Origin: Patellaria atrata CBS 101060
Lineage: Eukaryota > Ascomycota > Dothideomycetes > Patellariales > Patellariaceae
Direction: 5' to 3'
DNA: 64,000 nucleotides
NCBI GenBank assembly: GCA_010093705.1
Contig: MU006098.1
Location: forward strand, 634,666 to 698,665
Both the position numbers and the translations under genes were made by a program. Below the pieces are notes generated by a model. The model was not told the DNA's origin and searched no databases. It saw only the letters and a program-made list of their open reading frames with translations. Positions 11,383-34,807 of the stretch are shown here, one piece after another; within the stretch, counting starts at the first letter, position 1, and each line of letters begins with the position of its first letter.

Positions 11383-12573
11383 CTATTCCTTTCCACACTC
11401 CTCCGCCCTAAGCCGCGGATCTCTCCCGCGACGTATAGAATCCTGCCTCCACTCCTCCAACTGCTTCCGGAGCGGGTCGACGAGCCTCTCCAACTCTTCT
11501 TTCCTACCACCCAGCGGTTTCTCCAACTGAGTAATCTCCTCTCCACTCTCCCCCCTATATTTTGCCTCTAAAATGGTCTCTTCCATCTCATGAATAAAAT
11601 CCAACTCCTTCTCCCACTTCCTCAGACTATACCTCTGCTCGAACCACGCATTGAACCTCTCCTCGCCGCCAAAACACACCCCAAACCCATCGCAGTAACA
11701 GATATGCATTTTGGGGCAGTGGATACTCTGCCCCGAAAATGCGAACTGCCATATATACTCCCACACCCTGCCGGCGACATAGTCGCTCAGTGAGGTTTTG
11801 AGGAGCCAGGAACGGTACCACACCCACTGTTCCAATGGAACACTTCGTATTCTCTCCCCGCTCACAGCAAACTGCGCACAGCACGGTTGCGCCAGGGTAT
11901 GCGGCAATGGGGCCCTGGGGCCGAAAATCTCGCTCCACACAGTTTTCAGAATGTCTTGCTCGGGCTTATCTTCATCTGGGCCCGCATTCGGTTGGATCCA
12001 GGCTGGACACCCAGGATCCCAGTGGCACCGGAGGTTCATGTATCCCTCTCTTTGCACGCGGTGGGGGTTCAGGTTCTTTACCATCTCGATCGCGTCGTAG
12101 TCGAGGAGCTCGTCGTTGTGCCATGCTTGCCTATGCGCGTGCATGAACACTGTGACGTCGGGGAGGGAAGCGTAGTTGTCGATTATATACGTCAGGTAAA
12201 TCATTGCTTCGTGACCTTTGTTTTGCGGGGGGTGTAGCGGGGCGGAGGGGTCGTCGGCGGTGTAGATTGCGAGTTGCAGGTTGGGAAGGGTGGAGAGTTC
12301 CGATGTCCAGGAGACATCGTCTTCGAGGGTACGGCCAAGGACCAGAGTTATGGTGAAGTTGTGGGTGGCAGGAAGGGGGGTTCCAGGATGGAAGGTGGGT
12401 TGAAGAGCCGGGGAAGTGGGAGGGCCTTGGGAGAGCAGGAGGGTTGGTTGATGGCGGTTGAGGGACTCATCTTGGACGGATTGAGGAAGATCGGAATGGT
12501 TTGAATAGAGAATGAGAAGAAGTATGGATGTTGAGAGGATGAGGAGAAATATGAATCGATGACGCGCTGGCAT
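11383..12573 (-). CDS. DUF3431 family type II membrane protein
   Basis: A single-exon gene of 396 residues with its ATG at 12573. Residues 6-24 (RFIFLLILSTSILLLILYS) form a signal anchor, followed by a Pro/Ser stem, so the bulk should lie in the secretory lumen or outside the cell. The core matches the fungal DUF3431 family: an LVLGR strand, IYTADD, NKGHEAMIYLTYIIDNY, and LPDVTVFMHAHRQAWHND. The family is generally regarded as glycosyltransferase-like, but I know of no assigned activity for this member. The C-terminal 90 residues are charged and probably coiled (KWEKELDFIHEMEETILEAK). Family call is firm, function inferred. Confidence 0.9.
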   Translation of the reverse strand: MPARHRFIFLLILSTSILLLILYSNHSDLPQSVQDESLNRHQPTLLLSQGPPTSPALQPTFHPGTPLPATHNFTITLVLGRTLEDDVSWTSELSTLPNLQLAIYTADDPSAPLHPPQNKGHEAMIYLTYIIDNYASLPDVTVFMHAHRQAWHNDELLDYDAIEMVKNLNPHRVQREGYMNLRCHWDPGCPAWIQPNAGPDEDKPEQDILKTVWSEIFGPRAPLPHTLAQPCCAQFAVSGERIRSVPLEQWVWYRSWLLKTSLSDYVAGRVWEYIWQFAFSGQSIHCPKMHICYCDGFGVCFGGEERFNAWFEQRYSLRKWEKELDFIHEMEETILEAKYRGESGEEITQLEKPLGGRKEELERLVDPLRKQLEEWRQDSIRRGRDPRLRAEECGKE

Positions 12574-13361
12574 TGTTTGTTGATGTTGAGATCGCCGTCG
12601 CTATGCGGGATGCCGCGGATTTTAGTAGTTACATCTCCTTGCAGAGCGAATAACGTAGGCGAAATTGATAACTATGAGATTTTATAGGTATTACGGAAAG
12701 ATCATGATAGAACATAGCCGATTAAACATAAATTTGATGAAAATGGTAGTTGTACAATAGAAAGTCGCAATGCAGTTGTACAGTACAGTACCATACAGTA
12801 ACGTTACACTATATTCGGAGATGAGCTTGCATGCCTTCTACGTGTAGGGTACGTAAGCTTTGACTTTACGCGCATAACTGAAGGTAAACTGGAAATAGTG
12901 TATAGCTCATAATGCCCTAAGAAGAGGGAAGTCGTAAAAGGATGAAGACGGATATGCAACAAACAAGTGCTCTCGAAACAGCGGACATCCCAAATTCACC
13001 TCCACCTTCCCCTCCACTAGGGTTCTACCCACTGCTTTTGTCGTGATATAACCAATCAGGGCACATATTACATTAGAACTTTTCAATTCGACAGATACCC
13101 GCAGCTTAAATATACATTTCCGTATCCACCGAATGCAAAAGGACCAAGGAATCCCAAGATATCCCTGAAAGCACCTGGATCGATGTGATTGCGCCGGTGC
13201 TCCGGCAGCCGCCCACAGCATGAAGATCATACAATATCCACCAAGAAGTATCAGTCCTGGAAGAGATGAGAACGTGAATGAAGGGAAATGACGAAGAAAA
13301 GGATATACAGCCCCGGATCACTCCGTCACCATTACTCCCACCCCTTCATCTAGCACACGTA
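12574..13361. other. intergenic, convergent/tandem gap
   Basis: This is the upstream region of the DUF3431 gene and the 3' flank of the PHD gene at 13362. It contains two overlapping GTACAGTAC motifs at 12778-12791 and no supported gene. Confidence 0.5.
12778..12791. repeat. overlapping GTACAGTAC motifs
   Basis: Two overlapping copies of GTACAGTAC, at 12778-12786 and 12783-12791, amount to tandem GTACA units. Part of the recurrent intergenic motif. Confidence 0.8.
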
Positions 13362-16300
13362 CTAATACATCCTCCTTCTTCTCTTCTTCTTACTTACCAC
13401 TGGTACTTTGACCTGCCCCTCCTCCTCTGGGGCATTTGGGACGTCTCCCATGTCCTCATCCACCAGTCCATCCAACTCGTCATCATCAAGCTCGCTCAGC
13501 TCCTCGCTCATACCTCTTAGTACCTCTCGTCCTGTCCATCTTTCATCGTGTATATGTGTACCAACCGGGTCGAAAGGTTCCAAATACCACGGGACTCCAC
13601 CATGCACTAATGGAGCTAAGAGATCCTTCTCGAAGCGTGGTGGTGTCAAAGGATCGGGATTTATGGCTGAGTGTAATGTGCTGGAGTTCGACAGCGCCGG
13701 TGCTGAATTCGGGCTGTTGTGGTTATGTTCATTCGAGTCTGCATCATGCATCTCGATGTCTGTGCTGCCGATCGGCAGTGCTGCTTCTCCAGGAATGAGT
13801 TGTAGTCTGATCGCCGCCTCATCGGTGATCTCATCCCGATTTTCGCTGTGATCCCGGGCCGCTACCATACCTTCAGCTGTATCACTATTGCGAAGCACGA
13901 TGTCAGACCCTATTTCAGTACCGCTGACACCGTTTTCCACTGGATGGCTAGCTTCGCGGCTTCGCGTAGTGGACGATATTGTGGGCGCATCTTTCTCGGC
14001 TACATCTTCGGTGGTAGAATAGCGATGAATATTACCATGTAAAATAGCCTCCAGGTCTTTTAGTTCCTTTTCGTAAGGTTTGCCACCTAGTTCAGCTTCT
14101 TTTCGAATAGCATCCTCGAGTGGGCCTTGAATTGCTTTGATGATGCGTTTCGCAAGCTTCTTGAGTTCTTTCTGTTCTGAAGTCAGTGTTTTCTGACCAT
14201 CTTTGACTCCACTCAATTGCTGATGAGCGTCATTGACGTCACTGAGGTTACTGAGACCAGTAACGTTGCTAAACACAGCACCCATGTCTCGTGAGAAAGT
14301 AGACACTGTCGTATAAGATCTTTCCGCAAGCTTCGCTTGTATTTCATCAAATTCTTTCCTAAAAATACCCTTCGGATCAAGACTAAGAACTGTTAGCTTT
14401 AAGTTGTTCAAAATAGTTCTCAGATAGTATCCTTACGTTTGAGCCCTCTCAAGTATCGGTCGCAGAAGCTTTGGAATGGGAAAATACACTACCTCAACGA
14501 TGCTTGAAAGGATGCCAACATCATTAAGTTTTAGTTTCTCCCTTTCTTTGAGCTTCTCGCAGAGTGATCGGACTTTCTCCATTTGTCCCTCCAACATCTC
14601 AGCGAATTCGATACGTCTCTGCAGCTTAGGACCTCCTGCAGCACCCATTGCTGCAAAGTCGCGGCGAGTTATTTCCATAGATGTGAATGTATCCATCTGG
14701 AGTTGTAAGCGCTTGAGAAGTGCTGCGCCCCGACGTGCTTCGCGCTTGAGAGTCCAGTATTTGCACGCTTCTGCAATGAAGTCCTTACGCTTACGGATGG
14801 AAAATCTTGCTAATGAGGTCTCAACATTGTGATAGACAGCGTGAGGCACAACAGGAGCACCTGAGGGTAATCTCCAGACCGCGCGTTGTGACTGTCCCCT
14901 TTTGCGCTTGTTGCTGCCAGACACAGCTGCAGCATCTTCGTGAGCGCCGTACTCATCCCCACCTTCGAGAGATGCTCCAATAGTAGCTGATCCCATTGTC
15001 AAAGCAGTCTGTTGGCTATCTGCCCATCGCCTACCTCTCATTGTATGTCGATAGTAGCTTTTAGCTTCTGCTGTGGCTGTTTCTACATCGTTTTCCCGCC
15101 GCCAGTCTGGAGGCACGTGCTTATCGCACAAGGCCTTTAACACACTAGCATCCATCGTGCCAGGCCCACCGTGAGATGATTTCATTTTGAGAAAGAGCCT
15201 AGCACGACGTGCACAAGTGACATGGAACGCTTGGAAGCAATTCTTGTTTCCACATTGGATACATGCACCCATCTTTTGGTTGCAAATATAGCAATTGAGC
15301 TTCCATCTTGATTTTGGTACTTTTTCGACGTCCATGACCGGCTCCATGAATGCAGTATTGCCAAGACTGACTTCAGGGATCCATATCGAGCATAGTAGAT
15401 GTGCCCACTTGAGCGTATTGGTCTGCTTAAACGCACCATCTACGTTTGGGCAGAAGATGCACGTTGGTGTACCACGGCCGATCAGCTGGCATTTTCGGCA
15501 CATCCACTGTCCCTCTGGAACATAGGGAACACCATAACATTCTTGGTGAACTGCCAAGTCACAGCCATCACAAAATACAATTGCGTTCGAATTATCGCAA
15601 TCACCGTCATCACAGATAGCACATTTCGAATCCTGTTCTTCACCTGCTCCAGCCGGTTCTCCGTTCACAGCAGCTGCAGAAGATGACCGTGGTCGATGGG
15701 TCTGAGGTGGCTTCGGATTAGGTTTAGGTATTCCTTAATATCACGTCAGTATGGTGCTAATGATAAGAATAAAGCAACTTACGTTTCTCTAATGCATGCC
15801 ATTCCTTTTCAATGACAGTCATCGTTATCTCAAAGAAAGCGGGTTTTATCGCTTCTACTTGTTCTTCTTTCCTATGCGCATTGTATGCCTCAAGCCACCT
15901 ATCATCTTGTTCGTCCATATCATATTCGACCCTGCCAATCGGAGCCGGCACTGAGTTTCCTCCGGTAGCGGTCTCTTTATCAGACGCTCCAGCTAACAGA
16001 TCTAGGTCTTCTTCAAGAGAACCTTCCGAATTTCGAACGAGTGATCTCCCTTTCGGAACAAATAAATCACTTTCTTGATACCCTACATTTGCCAGTGTTC
16101 TGTCGACATAGTTCACTTGCACTGACTCATCCTTCTCGTAAGCTTCGAACGGGTGGACCTCCTTCCAGTAAGGTTTCGGTAGAGTCAGCTTCTCTTTCGG
16201 ATTATGTGCGGGTATAGGTTGTATCCTTGGAGCTGGGGGTGAGCCGAGGCCGTTTAGCATATGGCTCGGATTTCGCGGAGGTCGCCCAGGCCTGCGTTTT

Positions 16301-16992
16301 ATAGGTGTGACAAATTTAGGGATGGGCTGGACATTGATTGTATCTTCGTCACGTAGGGTAATAGATTCGTCTTGGTTACCATTTGACGTTATTTGCTGCG
16401 CCAACAATGCCTGATCTATGGCAGACGCTGCACCACTTTCAGTAGCCAAATGGTTATTTTGATATAGAAAATTGCTGTTAAGAGGAGTAGATGGTTTCGT
16501 ATTGGCAGGGGTATATCCGTCCACTTCATCGGCGGAAAAGGTCATCAAAGGTAAGTCAAGGTCCAAGTCCGGGTGGAATTCTTCCCAACCACGCTCTTCG
16601 CGTGGTTTATAAACATCACTAGCTGCCGCAGCTGCAACCGCAGCAGAACTATATCTAGGTCTTGGAGGAGGTGGAGCCCTTTCCCGTCGGGGCCGGCTGT
16701 ACGTCGTAGGAGGGTTGGGTGTAGCCTTGGGGGATTGTGGCACAACCCCCTTCTCAAGATTCATACGGCCAACACGACCACGAGGGCCAGTGTAGTTGTA
16801 TCCACCAGGGCCACCGCCGCCGACCAGAGTTATGTTTCCATCATCATCAATATATCTTCCTCCACCGCCAGGCCCACCAGGTATATATCGCAGTTTCTTG
16901 TTCGAGGTTTGTTTTACCGAGGTATCGCCGTTGACCTTTCGGGAGGGAGTGCGCGAGGGACGTTTCTTTGGAATCGGGGATACCGGAGCCAT
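13362..16992 (-). CDS. NTO1: NTO1-like chromatin reader (EPL1-like region plus two PHD fingers)
   Basis: Three exons on the minus strand: 16992-15783, 15733-14437 and 14382-13362 (3528 bases, 1175 residues). The introns are 49 and 54 bp with GTAAG donors, and the second has a CTAAC branch point. Residues about 300-412 carry the enhancer-of-polycomb-like region (EYDMDEQDDRWLEAYN, then ALEKRIPKPNPK across the first splice). A C4HC3 PHD finger starts at Cys441 (CAICDDGDCDN, FCDGCDLAVHQECYG) and an extended Cys/His-rich second PHD follows to about residue 610 (WAHLLCSIWIPE). The third exon opens with a bromodomain-like fragment (AERSYTTVSTFSRDMGAVF). This order matches BRPF/Nto1, the reader subunit of NuA3-type histone H3 acetyltransferase complexes. 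The C-terminal 250 residues are acidic and disordered, ending in a basic patch. It is divergent from the cystinosin gene at 17731. Confidence 0.93.
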
Positions 16993-17730
16993 ATCACTAG
17001 AGTACGAGAGGAGCGCTTCGTTCAGTTTGTATTGATGTTAGTTGAGATCTGTGGAAGTGGCGCGCAAAGATGATCGACGAGGGGGTTAAATGAGGATACC
17101 GTTTGCGCGAGCGCGACGGCGTTTGAACCCACCGTGACTCATGAGTGTGCGCCCATGAATAACGTGAGGTTATCGGAATCTCTGTAGAGGTAAACGAGAA
17201 CAGGAAGTGCCAAGTCCGTCAAATGTCGCGTTGAAGATACAGTTGACGATGGAGGTGGTGATTAAGCGTGATGTTGAACTTGAAGAAGAGTCTTGGCAAG
17301 GCTAATCTATATTTGGATAGCGTTTGATGATCGCTGCAGAAAGGCGAGAGCTGGTTCTTGTCCGATGCAAACAGATGCATTTCAGGGTCAGAAACAAGCA
17401 TTTCGAAGAAAGCTGTTCAGATTGATCGTTTTCTTCCAGGTACCCGGAGGACTTACCTTAGCATAACGCCTGCCTCCGCTATCTGCTGACCTGCCAACTT
17501 GTCTGTATAACAAAGCCCTTATGTCTCACCCTTTCCTGTTATATTCTATCATGCGCTGCTGACATCTCTCTACACCGTATTTCTCGTCTTCATTATCAGA
17601 ATTGTTCATCACTCTACTGTTGAACTCATGATAGCTACGTGCAACTCGTTACAGCATACGCATCAACTACCTTTTATCCCTTTATTGTACAAGTACTACA
17701 CCATTATTCTACTCTTAAGGGATTATCAAG
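16993..17730. promoter_or_regulatory. bidirectional intergenic region between NTO1 and cystinosin genes
   Basis: A 738-bp gap between two divergent ATGs, so it must contain both promoters. I see no clear TATA box; the part next to 17731 is pyrimidine-rich. Exact promoter elements cannot be assigned by eye. Confidence 0.4.
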
Positions 17731-18758: not shown

Positions 18759-20536
18759 TATGTCTTGTAGAAACGACTTTTGTTTGTAACCTCGAGCCAG
18801 GGTAGATAATTTAGAGTACACTTGAGTGCTAGATACAACAGATGTAGTTATACTCTGACCTATCAGCCTCGATATTCCTCAGACTTTGTACGGTTTTTAA
18901 ATTTACTACTGGTAGGCCGTTGAGCGTGTAGTATCAAAAGAGCTCTACTGTCAGTACGGCCACGTCTGTATACGACTGAGAGTATTCCATATGCTCTCGA
19001 TTCCCCAAGAGCACACAAATCAACATCATAGGTTATTTGTGTACTACGCACTCCGCGTACGTCTTCGTCTTTCAGTGTGTTAAAATCAGAGATGAATAAC
19101 GAATTAGTGTATAGTACCATAGGTGAGAATATTCCTGGCAAGGGATAAGTACCATAGTGAAGGAGAAGATTACGTCGTGTCACGACAACACGATATTCAT
19201 CGCATTGTTCAGTTACATCAATCAAGCACTTTCACCTGAATCAGGCTGTTTCCTCCGATCCATATACTGTTATATTATAAGGGATCTTCATCTTTTCTGA
19301 GTATAGAGATTTCGATCCCGCGACTGTAGGACGATATTCCGTTAAGGGCCTCGGTTATAAACTTCGACGTCTTGACTCGGAAGAACTAACTAGTGCTCAA
19401 ACTTACCAAACACTAAAAGGACGTACCTGTGACGGAGGTTACGGTTCAACACAGTATTCGCCCAAAGCAGACATGATAAAGCGATCCAAAGCCGGGGTAA
19501 GGGGGTAGGTTATGATCTCCACATGGGTGCCACGGGGATTTGGTACCTGAAATCCGCACATCTTAAGGCCAACCATTCTTACCGCCACGGACGCGCTTCA
19601 AAGGGGTGGTAGCTTTTAGCAAATATGTGCTAACGTTCGCGCTCTCAATCCCTCACTCTCCCGATCTTGACCGCGGTCAACATCGTCAATAGAAACTCCG
19701 TGGATCGCGAGGATTTAAGCCTTCGAAGGTATGTCATTTTCTGATATTTTCTTCACGTTTAGATGATAATTGAGATGATCTGCATATATCCCCTGAATCA
19801 CAATTTTCTCGGCAGCGCATGTATGTGGCGTTTCATGATGCTTCGTTCATGTTTTCATGCATCGTCCCTTTCGCGGGGAAATGCCATTTTTCACTCTTGC
19901 TTTTGACGCGTTTGTTGGGGATTCTCAAGTTGTTTAAAGCACAAGCTATATTTGAGCCATGATATATGCAAACGAACTGAGGACTGACACAATAATTAGC
20001 GATAGATATTTACCTTTCACTTAAGGAGGCGACTTCAGCTTCGTCATTGAGCACAGCCTAGTTCATCGACTGATAGAACGTTAACGGCAAAGCAGAGAGT
20101 CCAAGAGTCCACAGACAGTTTTTCAATTATCCATCATAGCTCCGCATTAGATCGATCGGTAGTATTCGTAGTGTTGCTTCTACTGCAGTATGCATGAGTA
20201 GTTCACACTCGATGCAAAAGGCTTCCCGTTTTAATCTGAAGATCGAAACTATATCCACGTTGCCGGGTCCAAGGGGTCCATCTCAAGATTTCTTCAACTT
20301 AAGACCCTAGTCTCTCTGCCAAAAACGGTCGACAGATCTTGACGGCTAACTCGATGGGAGAGTCAGAGCTCAAGTCGACTAGGGACGAGACGCTGGTTGA
20401 GCATTCAACAGTGGTACGTGTATTACCCGAAACGTGTGTTCCCCAAGCTTAGTGTCATGTAACATCATGCGAGACCAAACCCATAAAGAGGGATGTTTGC
20501 CCCAAGAATCATTAAGAAAATTTCCCTTCACACACA
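18759..20536. other. 1.8 kb gene-free stretch
   Basis: No supported gene on either strand. The last part is the upstream region of the RGS-LOV gene; light-response elements could lie here but none can be assigned by eye. Confidence 0.45.
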
Positions 20537-22924
20537 ATGGCTCCATTCCGTGATATCAAGAAAAAGCGTTCTGCTTACAGCATTTTTCGACAGTATCCCG
20601 TAGCATCATCTAAACAATCCGGTGTATCAAAGGATGATTCGCGCCCAGTGACTGCGTTGAATGATTCTCCAATTCGAGCCGCCAGTCCCAAGGTACCACG
20701 ACCGAATTATGTTGCCAATTCAACAGTGAGAGACTTCCAGGAGACTCTCAATCCAGAACATCAACTGCAACCACCACGAACTCCAGTTCAAGACCAAACC
20801 ACACCTCACAACCTTCAGGTCGGTCTATCATCTGACGATGATGATGATGAGGTCACCACTCCTCCACAAGAGTTAACCCCTCGCGGAATACACATTCCAT
20901 CAAGAACGAGGTTAGAATTCAATCTAAAAGATTTTCGATAACGTTACTTACCTCTATTGGCGTAATAGTAGTGCGCAGAAGATTAAGAAGAGATTTCGCC
21001 CATCCAGTCGTAGCCAAAGCCGTCAGACCAGCTATTCTCTCCCCACGACCCCAGATTCCTATCCTAAAAGCTCGAGAGATTCTATTTTTTCGACCGAGAC
21101 TAGTATAACGGCTCCATCTGAACTTCCAGCATTACAGGCGAATACTTTGCCTGCTGAGGAAGCTTACAAGCTTGAACCGTTGGTTGAAGATGACCCTAAG
21201 TCCTACGATCTAATAGCTGCCGCGGATCTCGAAAACAGTAAGGAGTATTCCCTGGAAAGACGTTCAGAACAATTGTTTTCCCGCCAGCACCTCGAAGCTA
21301 TATTTGCCGACTCGGCCCAATTACAGAGGTTCACAGACTTTCTAGGGACAAAACGGTCTTCATCCATACCCGTGCTCATCTACTATCTCGATGCCCTGAA
21401 AGCGCTCAGGGCGATCAATTACGCCAATGCAGTTGCAGAAGCGCTGGAACCAATGGAAGGACACGAATTCTCAGAACATCCAGCAAGACCCACGGTAAAC
21501 TCTATTCTTGAAGAAAAGGCTGATAAAGCTTTCGAAGCTTTAGTCAAGGACGAGTTGCCCGCCTTTATAACCCACACTTTTACTGAGCTTGTGAGTGAGA
21601 GTATACACAGACGCATCACGGGGACATTACCTCCGCACCTGCGCGAAGCATCTGAAGGACTTGCGGAAGTATTTTGTCTCTCGGATCCCTCGCGACCAGA
21701 CAATCCTTTAGTGTTCGCTTCGGAAGGTAAGCTTACTGTTACTGTACTTTCGATCACTCATTAATCCTAGGCTAGAATTCCACCGCACGACACAGTATGG
21801 TGTTAGTTATGCTGTTGGGCGAAACTGTCGCTTTCTTCAGGGTCCGAAGACAAACCGGAACAGTGTTAGCAGGTTGAGAGACGCTATAAATGCTGGGAAG
21901 GAGGTCAGCGAGGTCTTCTTAAACTAGTAAGTCATTCACTTCACGCAAATACTGAATGATTCTGACGATAATCAGCCGTCGTGATGGGTCACCTTTCATG
22001 AATCTTTTAATGGTTGCACCTTTACTAGATTCCAAAGGAACTCTTCGTTATTTTATCGGTGCACAAGTCGATGTAAGCGGACTTGTCAAAGACTGCTCGG
22101 ATTTACCTGCTTTGAAGGCAATGCTGGAGAAGGACGACGCCAGCATCGTCGAGGATAAAGAAGAGACGGAAATAGACGAGTTCCAACGATTGTCAGAAAT
22201 GTTCAATCTTACGGAGCTGGATACCGTCCGACGTTACGGCGGACGCATGCACCGACAACAGATTGATGAAATCGATGACGCCGCCTCTATTATCCACCGT
22301 CCCCGTCTATTGCTGAAGCACTCTAGCCACGAGGAGTTCTCGAGACGAGCTAGTGTCGATAGCCGCAAGATGGGAAAGCTACAAGGCGTCTATCAGCACG
22401 TAAGTGACTCTAATACCCACTAAGTCCTCCCAATGACTGACGTATATCAGTACCTGCTTGTTCGCCCGTACCCTTCTCTAAGAATTCTCTTCACATCCCC
22501 ATCCCTCCGCGTTCCAGGTATCATGCAATCCCCTTTCCTGTCTCGTATTGGTAACCAAGGCCGCGTGCGGGAAGAGCTAGTCGCCGCTCTCGCAGAAGGC
22601 CGTGGCGTCACAGCTAAGGTCCGCTGGATGTCCTCAAGCGGGAATGAAGGCCGTAACCGTTGGATTCATTGCACCCCCTTACTTGGTAACAATGGCGGGG
22701 TAGGCGTATGGATGATCGTCATCGTGGATGATGAGAGTAGCTTAGCTGGTCGCAAGTTTCGTCAGGCGCCGCCGGTTGAGGCGCCGGTTGGTAGAAAGGT
22801 GAGGAGGGATAGAGATGAGTGGATGGGTGAGCATGCTCCGAGCCCGGTTGTTCATAAGGTGAGGTTGGAAGAAGGTTTCAGGCAGGGAAGTGTACATTCA
22901 ATGGACTCGTACGCTCTAGGGTGA
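20537..22924 (+). CDS. RGS-LOV blue-light photoreceptor (BcLOV4-like)
   Basis: Five exons: 20537-20910, 20969-21726, 21776-21926, 21976-22399 and 22451-22924 (about 726 residues); the second could begin at 20972 instead. Residues 1-190 are disordered with an acidic run. Residues about 220-370 form an RGS domain (FSRQHLEAIFADSAQLQRFTDFL, LIYYLDALKALRAINYANAV). A LOV domain follows: SEEFHRTTQYG, then GRNCRFLQGPKT with the flavin-reactive Cys near residue 395, then NYRRDGSPFMNLLM and YFIGAQVDVSG. A further PAS-like segment lies near residues 590-670. Fungal RGS-LOV proteins bind FMN and, in Botrytis BcLOV4, move to anionic membrane lipids in blue light; RGS domains act on G-protein alpha subunits. 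A GTGAGT donor at 22921 overlaps the stop, so a tiny last exon (22987-22993), changing the end to LGE, is possible. Confidence 0.93.
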
Positions 22925-23472: not shown

Positions 23473-24241
23473 ATGTGCTCAACACGACCCATGAAATGCT
23501 CAGACCTGTTTAAGATCAACAAGTGCAACCTAGACCCTCTAGTCGAGACTTACAACATCGGCTTCTACCTGGAATATCTGACAAGGTGGCCGATGCTGTG
23601 TCAAGTTATCGAAAACATGCACGGACAGATCGAAGGTTACAGTGAGTCCCTACCTCCTCCCTGATCGAAAGAAAAGAAAAATCCTCAATCGAACTGCCTC
23701 AACCGGCGCGAAGACCAACTTCTATCCCTTCGATATGTGTATTGAAGCTAATGCTAACCCTTCCAGTCCTCGCAAAAACCGAAGCTTCCCCCTTCCCGCC
23801 AAACCCCTCGCCCTACGACCCGAAAACCTGCAGGAACCCGAATTATCTCCCTTGGCATGGGCACGTCACGGCGCTGACGGTAGCACCGGAGTTCCGACGA
23901 CAGGGCCACGCGAGGACGCTCACGGCGGCGTTGGAAAGGGCATGTGAGAGGGAGAATTGCTGGTTTGTGGATCTGTTCGTTAGGGTGGACAATCATACCG
24001 CCATTGCGATGTATCGGAAGATGGGGTGGGTGGATACCTCAAGGTGTTTGATTTAACTAGGAAGAAGGGAGGGTGCTAATGTCTTGTTCGCAGATACACC
24101 GTCTACCGCCGTGTAGTGGGCTACTACAATGACGATACGGATGCCTTCGATATGCGGAAACCGCTTTCCAGGGATAAGGACAAGTTGCACATTCGTAAGG
24201 ACGGAGAGGAGTTTCGCGTCGAACCGAGTGATGTCTGGTGA
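23473..24241 (+). CDS. NAT3: NatB catalytic subunit, N-alpha-acetyltransferase NAA20/NAT3
   Basis: Three exons: 23473-23641, 23767-24025 and 24094-24241, coding 191 residues; introns are 125 and 68 bp. The start MCSTRPMKCSDLFKINKCNL, then DPLVETYNIGFYLEYLTRWP, matches eukaryotic NAA20 almost position for position. The GNAT acetyl-CoA loop is VAPEFRRQGHARTL, preceded by WHGHVTALT and followed by FVDLFVRVDNHTAIAMYRKMGYTVYR. The end has the family's DAFDMRKPLSRD. NatB acetylates nascent proteins starting Met-Asp/Glu/Asn/Gln at the ribosome, together with the auxiliary subunit MDM20/NAA25. A Pro/Asn-rich insert (ASPFPPNPSPYDPKTCRNPN) sits before the GNAT core and is typical of fungi. Confidence 0.95.
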
Positions 24242-27392: not shown

Positions 27393-29413
27393 ATGCAATA
27401 TCCTCTGTGGTTCGTGGCAGGTTTATCATTGCTTCAACATGCTTATGGGTATAACTTTGCGTGGGAAGGAGTGCAATTGACGGAGAAAGATACAAAGAAC
27501 CATCCGGAGATAGCGTTTCCAAACGGCGTAAAAGTTTCAACTGCAAAATGTAAATCATATCCTGGAGACTCGGACTGGCCGACTGAAGAACAATGGAATG
27601 CTTTCAATAAGACTTTAGGAGGAAACCTTATCAAACCTGTACCACTTGCTTTACCATGCTATGCTGGAGAGAGCTACAATGCAACAACATGCGCTTCGCT
27701 TCAAAGAAATTGGGAGACTTCAACAACCCAGTAAGGAAGTCCAGAATATGTTTTAAGTAGAATATAGCTGATTAAGGTTGACAGCTTTGTTGACCCGGCT
27801 TCAATGATGAATCCATTTACTATAGGAAATGGGTGCCTTCCGACATCAGACAAGAACGCAAAGTGTGTGACAGACGGATACGCTGCATACGTTGTAGACG
27901 CAAGAACCGTGAAGCACATCCAACTAGCTGTCAACTTCGCAAGAAATCAGAATATACGACTTACTATCAAGTAAGTTCCGTGCTCCCATGATCTCAATTC
28001 CACGGCAATTGACATATGTACATAGGAACACAGGACACGATTTCCTTGGCCGTTCTGCAGGTGGTGGTTCTCTCAGTATCTGGACGCACAATGTCAAGGA
28101 CATGGCATATCATGAGTCAGTGACCATTGGAAATTATACTGGAAAGGCAGTAAGTTTAGCGGCGGGTGTTCAAGCGTTCGACGTGTACAGGTTCCAGAAT
28201 CCATACGATATCACGGTCATCGCTCCAGGTGGAATTTCAGTCGGGGCGATGGGTGGCTTCTTTCAATGGGGAGGCCATTCTACACTGACATCGTTCCTGG
28301 GATTGGCGGCCGATCAAATACTTTCTCTGCAAGTTGTTACTGCAGATGGAAGGTTCCTGACCGCGGACCCGACCCAGAATCAGGACCTCTTTTGGGCAAT
28401 TAGAGGAGGAGGTGGAGGTAGGTTCGATCATACCCTTTCAGGGTTAGACTCGAGGTCATCTTTTGCTAACTTTTTTTTTAACCTTTCAAGGCACCTTTGG
28501 TGTGGTTACCTCCGCGATCTGGAAAGCGCATCCAAAATTCCCGATATCCAGCTCTTCGATCGCATTCTCGACTCAAGGTACCGGAACGAGCGCTTTAAGT
28601 GTCGAGACTTTCTGGAAAGGTATCAGGGTGTATATGAATCATGTTGTACGTCTATGTGACAACGGAGGCGAAGGATACAACTTCATAAATCCTCTCAACT
28701 CAGCAAACGGTAAAGGTTACTCTTTCACCCATTCAATGACGCTGCCCAACTTTACTGCGGCGGCCCACCGGCGATGGTTGCAACCGATGATTGATGAATT
28801 GAATGATGTTGGTATCAATATCAGAATGCCAAATCCGTCCTTCAGCGAGTCCTTTTCGGCTGGTCCGAGCCGGTCTACCAATACCGGGAACACTGTGGGG
28901 AACACTCGCATGTCAACGCGACTGTTTCCCCGCGAGAACTTTGAGAGCGAAGAGTTGCTTGCCACGTCGCTCAAGGTAATCCGAGCATGGGTTGAAGAAG
29001 GTGGTTATGTCTTCCACGGCATCAATTACGCTCCGACAGAAGAGGTGTCTGGCTTCCCCGACAACGCTGTGAACCCGGCACTTCGCAGGACTGTGTTGCA
29101 TGCTGAAGGGTTTGACAGAACGCCGACGAACGTTCCTGTTGAGCAGCAAAAAGCACAGTGGGAACGTTTGAATCGTTTTATGCAGCCATGGCGGGATATC
29201 ACGCCCGGAAGTTACGCTAACGAAGCGGATGTGGATGAACCCAATTTCCAGCAATCCTTCTACGGCTCAAATTATCCACGACTTTCGCAGATTAAGAAAG
29301 AGAGGGATCCATGGGATTTATTCTATGCGACGACAGCTGTAGGGAGCGAAAGATGGCAGGTGATTACACCTGGCATGATGAAGACACAAAATGGTCGTCT
29401 TTGTAAGGTCTGA
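27393..29413 (+). CDS. secreted FAD-linked oxidase with BBE domain
   Basis: Four exons: 27393-27730, 27785-27970, 28026-28417 and 28491-29413, coding 612 residues; introns are 54, 55 and 73 bp. A signal peptide (MQYPLWFVAGLSLLQHAYG) precedes the mature part. The FAD-binding PCMH domain includes KNTGHDFLGRSAGGGSLSIW, in which His179 is the expected covalent FAD site, followed by AIRGGGGGTFGVVTSA. The C-terminal berberine-bridge (BBE) segment is NEADVDEPNFQQSFYGSNYP and DPWDLFYATTAVGSERW. Such enzymes oxidise alcohols, sugars or secondary metabolites using oxygen. No other biosynthetic genes lie nearby, so the substrate cannot be inferred. The ATG was chosen because it starts the signal peptide. 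Confidence 0.92.
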
Positions 29414-32956: not shown

Positions 32957-34807
32957 CTACTTCCCCGTCTTCTGCTTCTTCTTTGGTCTCTCGACAATCT
33001 TCTCTTCCTTCGGAGGCTTCTCCTCATCTGCATCCGCCATCTCCTCATCACTGCCTCCACTACTGACGTGATCGGAATCATACTCCTCGGCAACATCGGA
33101 CTCGGATTCGGTGTGGAAATCCTCATCTACACTTTCGTCATCCTCGTCTGCGCTGCCGCGCGTCATGACAACGTGTTCCTCTTCGCTAGATGCGAGATCA
33201 GCGTCCTCCTTGAGCGCCGCCGCAAGAAGAGCGCTCGACTGAAGTCTATTAGCATGGGTACAAGATAGATGTGCAGGAATATACTTACATCATCAGCCAT
33301 CTCATTCTTAGTCTTGAGACCCTTTGCCTCGAAGAAGTCTTCTAATGGCTTCTGCTCTTCGCGGTTAATGTTGCTAAACTGGTGCTCGCCCTGGCCATTC
33401 TTCAGCGTGACGGTGACATCAAACGTGCGACTTGCGGAGATGGCACCGCCAATACGGGAAAGCGTGACGATCTGGATGTTGTCGAAGGAAATATACGTCG
33501 CCGGTTTGGGAACGAACATGAAACTCTTGTCCAAGCAGAACAAGAGACCTTCGTTAGCTTTGATAGAGCATTTGACCCCGGATTGTTGGTGGTGACTTAG
33601 GAAGTCCTTAGATGGAGTGACAATCTTCTTGCCGGCAAGGCCACGGAATATTTGAGCTACAACGGTAGAGATCGGGCTTTCGTAGTGGGATTGTAGCTTG
33701 CCTCCATATTTTTCTAGCACCTCATCCTTCATGTTCAGATCAAGAGTAACTTCTTCATCTCGCTTGAACTGCATAACAAGGAATGGATACCTAGTCTGAC
33801 CCTGTCGTAAGGGAGGATCGAGGCCAATCGTGATGAGGATGTGGATCTCGTCCGGTTTCGGGAGTAACATAAACTTTTTGATCGACTCGTACTGGATCTT
33901 ATAGTCGTACGTTTTTCCACGTAACCGGAAAGACTTTTCGTACATATCGATGTCGAAACGTCCTCTAAGAAAGCATTAGTCGCAATTTATAGGGAAAGTG
34001 AGGGCCTACAAGCCTTGGTGTGAGATGCAACACATCCAAAAAGGTAGCATATGTGTCGCCTGCGACCTCACCGATCTCCGCCTTTTCAATAAGGGTATCA
34101 TAAAACACCTGTGCGTTTGAGGCATACAGCCCATCGGCATTTTCCGCATCTGACCCAGCATCACCGTTCTCTCCGTTCTCCTCTTTAATGGCTGTAGAGC
34201 CTGGTATGTAGAACCGCATCTCAACCAGCTGATCTCTCGCCGCTCCCGTTTTTCTTCCCTTCGCTCGAGCACCACCCAAATGCCCATTTGTACCCGTCTC
34301 ATCGCCGTTTGCAGGGTTGGAAAAATCTACCGCCACCTCGTTCTTTCCCGCCAAATTTGTATTCGATACCTCCGAGTACGGGATCGAAAACGCTGGGCGA
34401 CTCTGGACGTTAAAATGCAGCTCGGCTTTACCGAAATCTGCCTTGCCCCAGTTCCAGCCTCGCAGCGCGTGCTCTTTGTGTTCTAAATTGATCCGGTACC
34501 AGTTTTTAAAGAGTTTGCTGATGCGCTCGAAATCCTACTACTCGTTAACGTCGAAATAAGGGTGTGGAATGTGAATGTCTAACGTACCTCTTGCTGAAAA
34601 CCATCGAGTTGAACTACCGCGTTGTTCCTTGAGTAGACCTTTATTTCGTAGCCTCTCGATGCCCTACTCCACTGGGCTTGTGTGAATTCGGCGGCATCCA
34701 GAGTGAACGGGTCCCCATTTCCTAGTTTCCAGCCAAGGCCTGTCTCGACGAATCTGCATTTTCCAGGTTGCTTTGAGAGATCGAGATATATCTCATCGAA
34801 CGTCTCC
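32957..34807 (-). CDS. POB3: FACT complex subunit POB3/SSRP1 (first coding exon not resolved)
   Basis: Minus-strand exons 34807-34588, 34534-34014, 33964-33289 and 33238-32957 give about 566 residues. The protein runs ETFDEIYLDLSKQPGKCRF, then the SSRC domain (RFDIDMYEKSFRLRGKTYDY), then the middle pleckstrin-like domain (GVKCSIKANEGLLFCLDKSF and SFDNIQIVTLSRIGG), and ends in a long acidic tail with a basic finish (RPKKKQKTGK). It lacks an HMG box, as in fungal Pob3. FACT moves H2A-H2B during transcription and replication with SPT16. The exon at 34807 enters in phase 2, so a short first coding exon lies upstream; one candidate is ATG 35151 encoding MNCR. The intron at 33965-34013 appears to be GC-AG. 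Confidence 0.93.

Follow-up and report, generated by a model that had tools for sequence, protein, structure and literature searches.

A LOV photoreceptor gene of five exons, encoding a protein of 726 amino acids, occupies positions 20537-22924 (+ strand) of the window, by which we mean the whole 64-kb stretch of DNA that was analysed. The gene is real, its LOV core is intact and has the cysteine of adduct formation, and the protein is probably photoactive. Judging from its features only, we assign it with a probability of roughly 60% to the phototropin-like fungal LOV proteins of the BcLOV3/LovA type rather than to the RGS-LOV proteins of the BcLOV4 type; this class is favoured because no RGS domain is detectable and, weakly, because GATCGA sites lie upstream. 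Within this group of fungal photoreceptors, which has been studied little, it seems unexceptional.

Gene structure

The coding sequence opens with the ATG at 20537 (context CACACAATGGC) and runs to a TGA stop that ends at 22924, and removal of four GT-AG introns (58, 49, 49 and 51 nt) joins the exons into a single open frame of 726 codons. The earlier note had rebuilt five exons in frame, and its coordinates proved exact. All parts lie on the + strand. Exon 1 (20537-20910) encodes an N-terminal region, probably disordered, with the basic cluster KKKRSAYS (aa 8-15). Exon 2 (20969-21726) holds another basic cluster, KIKKRF (aa 129-134), the helical RGS-like domain and the start of the LOV core; exon 3 (21776-21926) carries the flavin-reactive cysteine motif. 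The end of the core, with Gln458, and the linker that follows it are encoded by exon 4 (21976-22399), and exon 5 (22451-22924) encodes a probable PAS-like domain (about aa 570-663, from a low-confidence model) and then a tail.

The edges of intron 1 (20911-20968, 58 nt) are the least certain part of the gene model, because its donor, GTTAGA, is weak. The intron ends in a tandem acceptor (20969/20972; TAGTAG at 20966-20971), at which one Ser is gained or lost, so that use of the second acceptor would give a protein of 725 aa. Introns 2 (21727-21775) and 3 (21927-21975) are each of 49 nt, and intron 4 (22400-22450) is of 51 nt. An intron had been placed just before NYRRDG; the motif is present, but intron 3 cuts the codon of Tyr428 within it.

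LOV core and flavin pocket

The LOV core (about aa 354-465; 21654-22087, + strand, introns counted in the span) is spread over exons 2, 3 and 4. Its reactive-cysteine motif, GRNCRFLQGP (GRNCRFLQGPKT), begins at aa 392 and has the GxNCRFLQ form of phototropin-type LOV domains; within it, Cys395 (codon 21826-21828, +) is the equivalent of oat LOV2 Cys450. A second LOV motif, NYRRDGSPFMNLLM, is also present in the protein. In a search of PDB sequences, aa 354-480 matched oat phototropin LOV2 at 8.8e-30, ungapped to about residue 474, and an ungapped comparison of the two found 51 of 121 residues identical (48 of 101 within the core). A Pfam scan of the whole protein at E ≤ 1 returned three PAS families and nothing else, with PAS_9 matching the LOV core at 2.9e-13, and at the same threshold ten NCBIfam families matched the core, with bacterial LOV proteins at the top.

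The flavin pocket is likewise conserved, as expected of a phototropin-type LOV domain. Among 19 positions that we take to be the flavin contacts, 14 are identical to oat LOV2, including Cys395, Arg396, Gln399, Arg412, Asn427, Asn437 and Gln458, and five differ (Cys361, Ser363, Leu372, Leu439 and Val441). The motif, the match to oat LOV2 and the pocket together bear out the claim in the earlier note of an intact LOV domain with a flavin-reactive cysteine. VVD-type fungal LOV domains, which bind FAD, carry a long loop. That loop is absent from the sequence of the present core, which makes FMN the likelier cofactor.

N-terminal helical domain

The helical domain ahead of the LOV core, the linker behind it and the C-terminal domain stand in the same order as in BcLOV4 as that protein is described in PMC8993538, and the gene might accordingly be read as a BcLOV4-type RGS-LOV protein, from which blue light would free a basic amphipathic helix that takes the protein to the plasma membrane, while the RGS domain damps G-alpha signalling. 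We hold this reading to be possible but doubtful, and its two distinctive parts, the RGS domain and the lipid-binding helix, are considered in turn.

The helical domain (about aa 218-347; 21246-21635, +) was predicted as such by a single-sequence model of low confidence (pLDDT 49.9). It shows a marginal RGS-like pattern and no Pfam RGS match: RGS (PF00615) was found neither in the whole protein at E ≤ 1 nor in the helical segment alone at E ≤ 10, a scan in which few matches above about 0.1 pass the filters. A PDB sequence search with the segment gave a single match at chance level (1.1), which was not an RGS protein; in a control search at E ≤ 0.01, RGS4 by itself retrieved 38 different PDB sequences, among them those of axin, sorting nexin-13 and RGS22. 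Against a profile that we built from six animal RGS domains, the segment scored 3.5 bits, a value equalled by 20 of 2,000 shuffles (1,680 were reported at all, the highest at 9.7), as against 77.5 bits for axin, which had been excluded from the profile. When axin was added, to a total of seven sequences only, the segment scored 3.1 bits, equalled by 23 of 2,000 shuffles (highest, 8.3), and the hhalign probability for the segment against such small RGS profiles (6-7 sequences only) was 0.4-1.2 percent. A Foldseek search with the model of the domain, which at pLDDT 49.9 is too poor to count, returned 32 matches and no entry named RGS. The sole NCBIfam match of the segment at E ≤ 1, a malto-oligosyltrehalose synthase model (0.02), was taken as chance. 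The identification of the N-terminal domain as RGS, as first proposed, is thus not upheld by the Pfam scans or by our own profile.

What speaks for a BcLOV4-type protein here is the colinearity of the marginal pattern. Two short stretches of the segment align colinearly with the RGS domain in the axin-including profile: HLEAIFADSAQLQRFTDFLGTKRSSS (1.0 bit) falls in the first third of the domain, and LEEKADKAFEALVKDELPAFI (-1.0 bit) on a 21-residue stretch of RGS4. RGS4 contacts G-alpha through Asn88, Asn128, Asp163, Ser164 and Arg167. In these marginal alignments, read by eye, the position of Asn88 is taken by Ile258, or by Ser257 after a shift of one residue, the stretch with Asn128 is 14 residues shorter in the fungal protein, and Asp163 is kept while Ser164 and Arg167 are not. 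By these alignments the helical domain may descend distantly from RGS, but they lend no support to an active RGS domain.

The proposal that this fungus couples blue light to G-protein signalling fares no better, given the missing Pfam match, the marginal profile score and the absence of most RGS4 contacts to G-alpha in the marginal alignments. By our analysis such coupling would be a weak expectation even for the RGS class, given the findings for MoRgs5. This protein has an RGS domain followed by PAS and PAC domains. It interacted with MoMagB and MoMagC in yeast two-hybrid assays, and its deletion raised cAMP 2.2-fold, which favours a BcLOV4-type role; against this, binding to MoMagC was seen for each of the eight RGS proteins and a rise in cAMP for every one of the eight deletions, and according to the authors MoRgs5 may work independently of G-protein signalling (PMC3248559).

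Linker and C-terminal segment

The linker after the LOV core spans about aa 463-569, and the stretch aa 463-575 has a net charge of -4, which weighs against a BcLOV4-type protein. The best helix of 18 residues in the linker, aa 549-566, carries a charge of +4, has a hydrophobic moment of 0.27 and reaches D = 1.58. This value exceeds 1.34, the usual cut-off for lipid-binding helices, and to that extent favours the BcLOV4-type reading, yet 349 of 1,000 linker shuffles equal it, a fraction to be read without a control value for BcLOV4. Towards the N-terminus there are basic clusters stronger than that of the linker, at about aa 8-15 and 129-134. For BcLOV4, lipid binding is ascribed to a polybasic amphipathic helix that lies between its LOV and C-terminal domains (PMC8993538); no helix in the present linker stands out as both polybasic and amphipathic, and the likeness to BcLOV4 drawn in the earlier note is not supported here. 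The linker also contains RRASV (22343-22357, +) in the stretch between the LOV core and the C-terminal segment. RRASV resembles what we take to be the consensus of a protein kinase A site and could provide a cAMP input to the photoreceptor.

The segment encoded by exon 5, modelled alone, has a mean pLDDT of 49, with residues 21-100 at about 53-72 (low confidence), and a Foldseek search with this model placed LOV domains on top (best E 4.2e-04, prob 1.00, TMq 0.45). PAS_4 matches the segment in the whole-protein Pfam scan at 0.033, below the cut-off of that family. The PAS-like segment that had been seen after the LOV core is thus probable from the model and the PAS_4 match, but no Pfam family was recovered at E ≤ 10 when the segment was scanned by itself. 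A PDB sequence search with it returned five matches at chance level (best, 0.2), and no NCBIfam family matched the linker and C-terminus at E ≤ 1. The segment thus probably adopts a PAS fold that lacks the reactive cysteine; GxNCRFLQ is absent from it, and for that reason the domain, if PAS, would be without photochemistry. An origin by internal duplication found no sequence support, the local score between the segment and the protein's own LOV core being equalled by 166 of 1,000 shuffles.

Upstream region and neighbouring genes

The white-collar complex binds GATCGA (PMC3991626). Four such sites lie in the 1,237 bases upstream of the gene, against 0.8 expected, and two of them overlap as one palindrome, GATCGATC (20150-20157), a possible, weak white-collar site about 380 nt upstream of the ATG and the only such palindrome in the window. 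Over the whole window and both strands, GATCGA occurs 35 times (41 expected). In a post hoc test, 58 of 6,277 windows of equal size held as many sites, and the cluster was judged weak; the enrichment would fit a light-induced class weakly.

A GNAT acetyltransferase gene (Acetyltransf_1, 2e-13), presumably the NatB catalytic subunit Naa20, adjoins at 23473-24241 (+). At 14436-17037 (-), adjoining open frames, probably of one gene, encode EPL1 (2.8e-34) and PHD-type zinc-finger (6.7e-33) domains, which we take to be like NTO1 of the NuA3 histone acetyltransferase complex. An SSRP1/POB3-like histone chaperone (FACT complex), with SSrecog, PH1_SSRP1-like and Rttp106-like domains, is encoded at 33166-34534 (-), and at 27928-29410 (+) two overlapping open frames hold FAD_binding_4 and BBE, the domains of a berberine-bridge-type FAD oxidase. 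The window further encodes a DUF3431 protein of unknown function (11386-12600, -; a strong match, 5.5e-92) and a Zn2Cys6/Fungal_trans protein, which together with the short introns points to a filamentous fungus. ARAGORN found no tRNA in the window, and Rfam no RNA family at its gathering thresholds.

Class assignment and proposed mechanism

Two types of fungal LOV protein are distinguished in PMC10056346, in which those with an RGS domain (LovB, MoRgs5) are set apart from LovA, without a recognisable regulatory domain, and both types are recorded in Magnaporthe, Botrytis and Fusarium. Zymoseptoria has a corresponding pair, 17.7% identical to each other: Zt_Lov1 has a Pfam RGS domain (4.2e-08), and none is noted for Zt_Lov2 in the relevant part of PMC9512790. 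Expression follows a similar division. In Botrytis cultures, bclov4 is described as the only blue-light receptor gene without light induction, and the induction of bclov3 as needing BcWCL1 (PMC10218500); in Fusarium, lovA is light-induced via white-collar proteins and lovB is not (PMC10056346). The terms RGS-LOV and LOV-u occur in a paper on Verticillium dahliae (PMC7493669), and BcLOV3 is labelled 'short-LOV' in one review table.

The present protein, like LovA as described, has no recognisable regulatory domain, and its Pfam matches at E ≤ 1 are PAS families only. Several points count against the BcLOV3/LovA class: the label 'short-LOV' misfits a three-domain protein of 726 aa, the RGS-like pattern is marginal (20 of 2,000 shuffles), the D of the best linker helix, 1.58, is above 1.34, and BcLOV4 likewise is described with a C-terminal domain of unknown function. 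Pattern searches for relatives gave 37 matches in IMG/VR and 77 in prokaryote genomes, none of which was confirmed.

For a protein of the BcLOV3/LovA type, we propose a mechanism built on general LOV biochemistry. The LOV core would bind FMN, blue light would couple the flavin to Cys395, Gln458 would then flip, and the linker behind it (aa 463-569) would loosen. As a result, the helical domain at the N-terminus and the PAS-like domain at the C-terminus may pack differently, and this might switch protein-protein contacts, by dimerisation or scaffold binding, rather than activate the GTPase of G-alpha. It is also conceivable, if rather unlikely in our estimate, that the helical domain derives from an RGS domain whose G-alpha contact residues were lost and that it now serves as a light-controlled scaffold or lid; this fungal class would then sense blue light with a module of RGS origin that has no G-protein contact. 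A light-insensitive or decayed LOV gene, either a pseudogene or one whose mis-splicing leaves no holoprotein, is very improbable: the donor of intron 1 is weak and retention of any of the four introns would bring an in-frame stop within the intron or at its edge, but 726 codons run without frameshift or stop across four GT-AG introns and the flavin pocket is conserved, and on the intact frame and pocket a pseudogene was ruled out.

LOV proteins of these fungal types have received very little attention so far (PMC10056346). Which of them possess a functional RGS domain determines whether G-protein signalling should be expected to receive a light input, and optogenetics would benefit from a second fungal scaffold with a natural light switch.

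Comparison with known systems

With oat NPH1-1, the protein has in common a LOV core in which 48 of 101 residues are identical without gaps; NPH1-1 is a plant phototropin, whereas Pfam finds no kinase domain in the fungal protein. With the RGS-LOV proteins BcLOV4, LovB, Zt_Lov1 and MoRgs5, compared by description, it has in common an N-terminal helical domain followed by LOV, and with BcLOV4 also a C-terminal domain, that of BcLOV4 being of unknown function (PMC8993538). It differs from them in having neither a detectable RGS signature nor a standout polybasic amphipathic linker helix, and at 726 aa it is longer than BcLOV4 (593) and LovB (663), by the lengths given in the sources. It is also longer than LovA (674 aa; PMC10056346), and its size contrasts with the description of BcLOV3 as 'short-LOV'. 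Likened by description, the present protein, LovA and probably BcLOV3 and Zt_Lov2 have in common a phototropin-like LOV core without a Pfam-recognised regulatory domain, and the light induction of lovA and bclov3 agrees weakly with the GATCGA sites upstream of the present gene.
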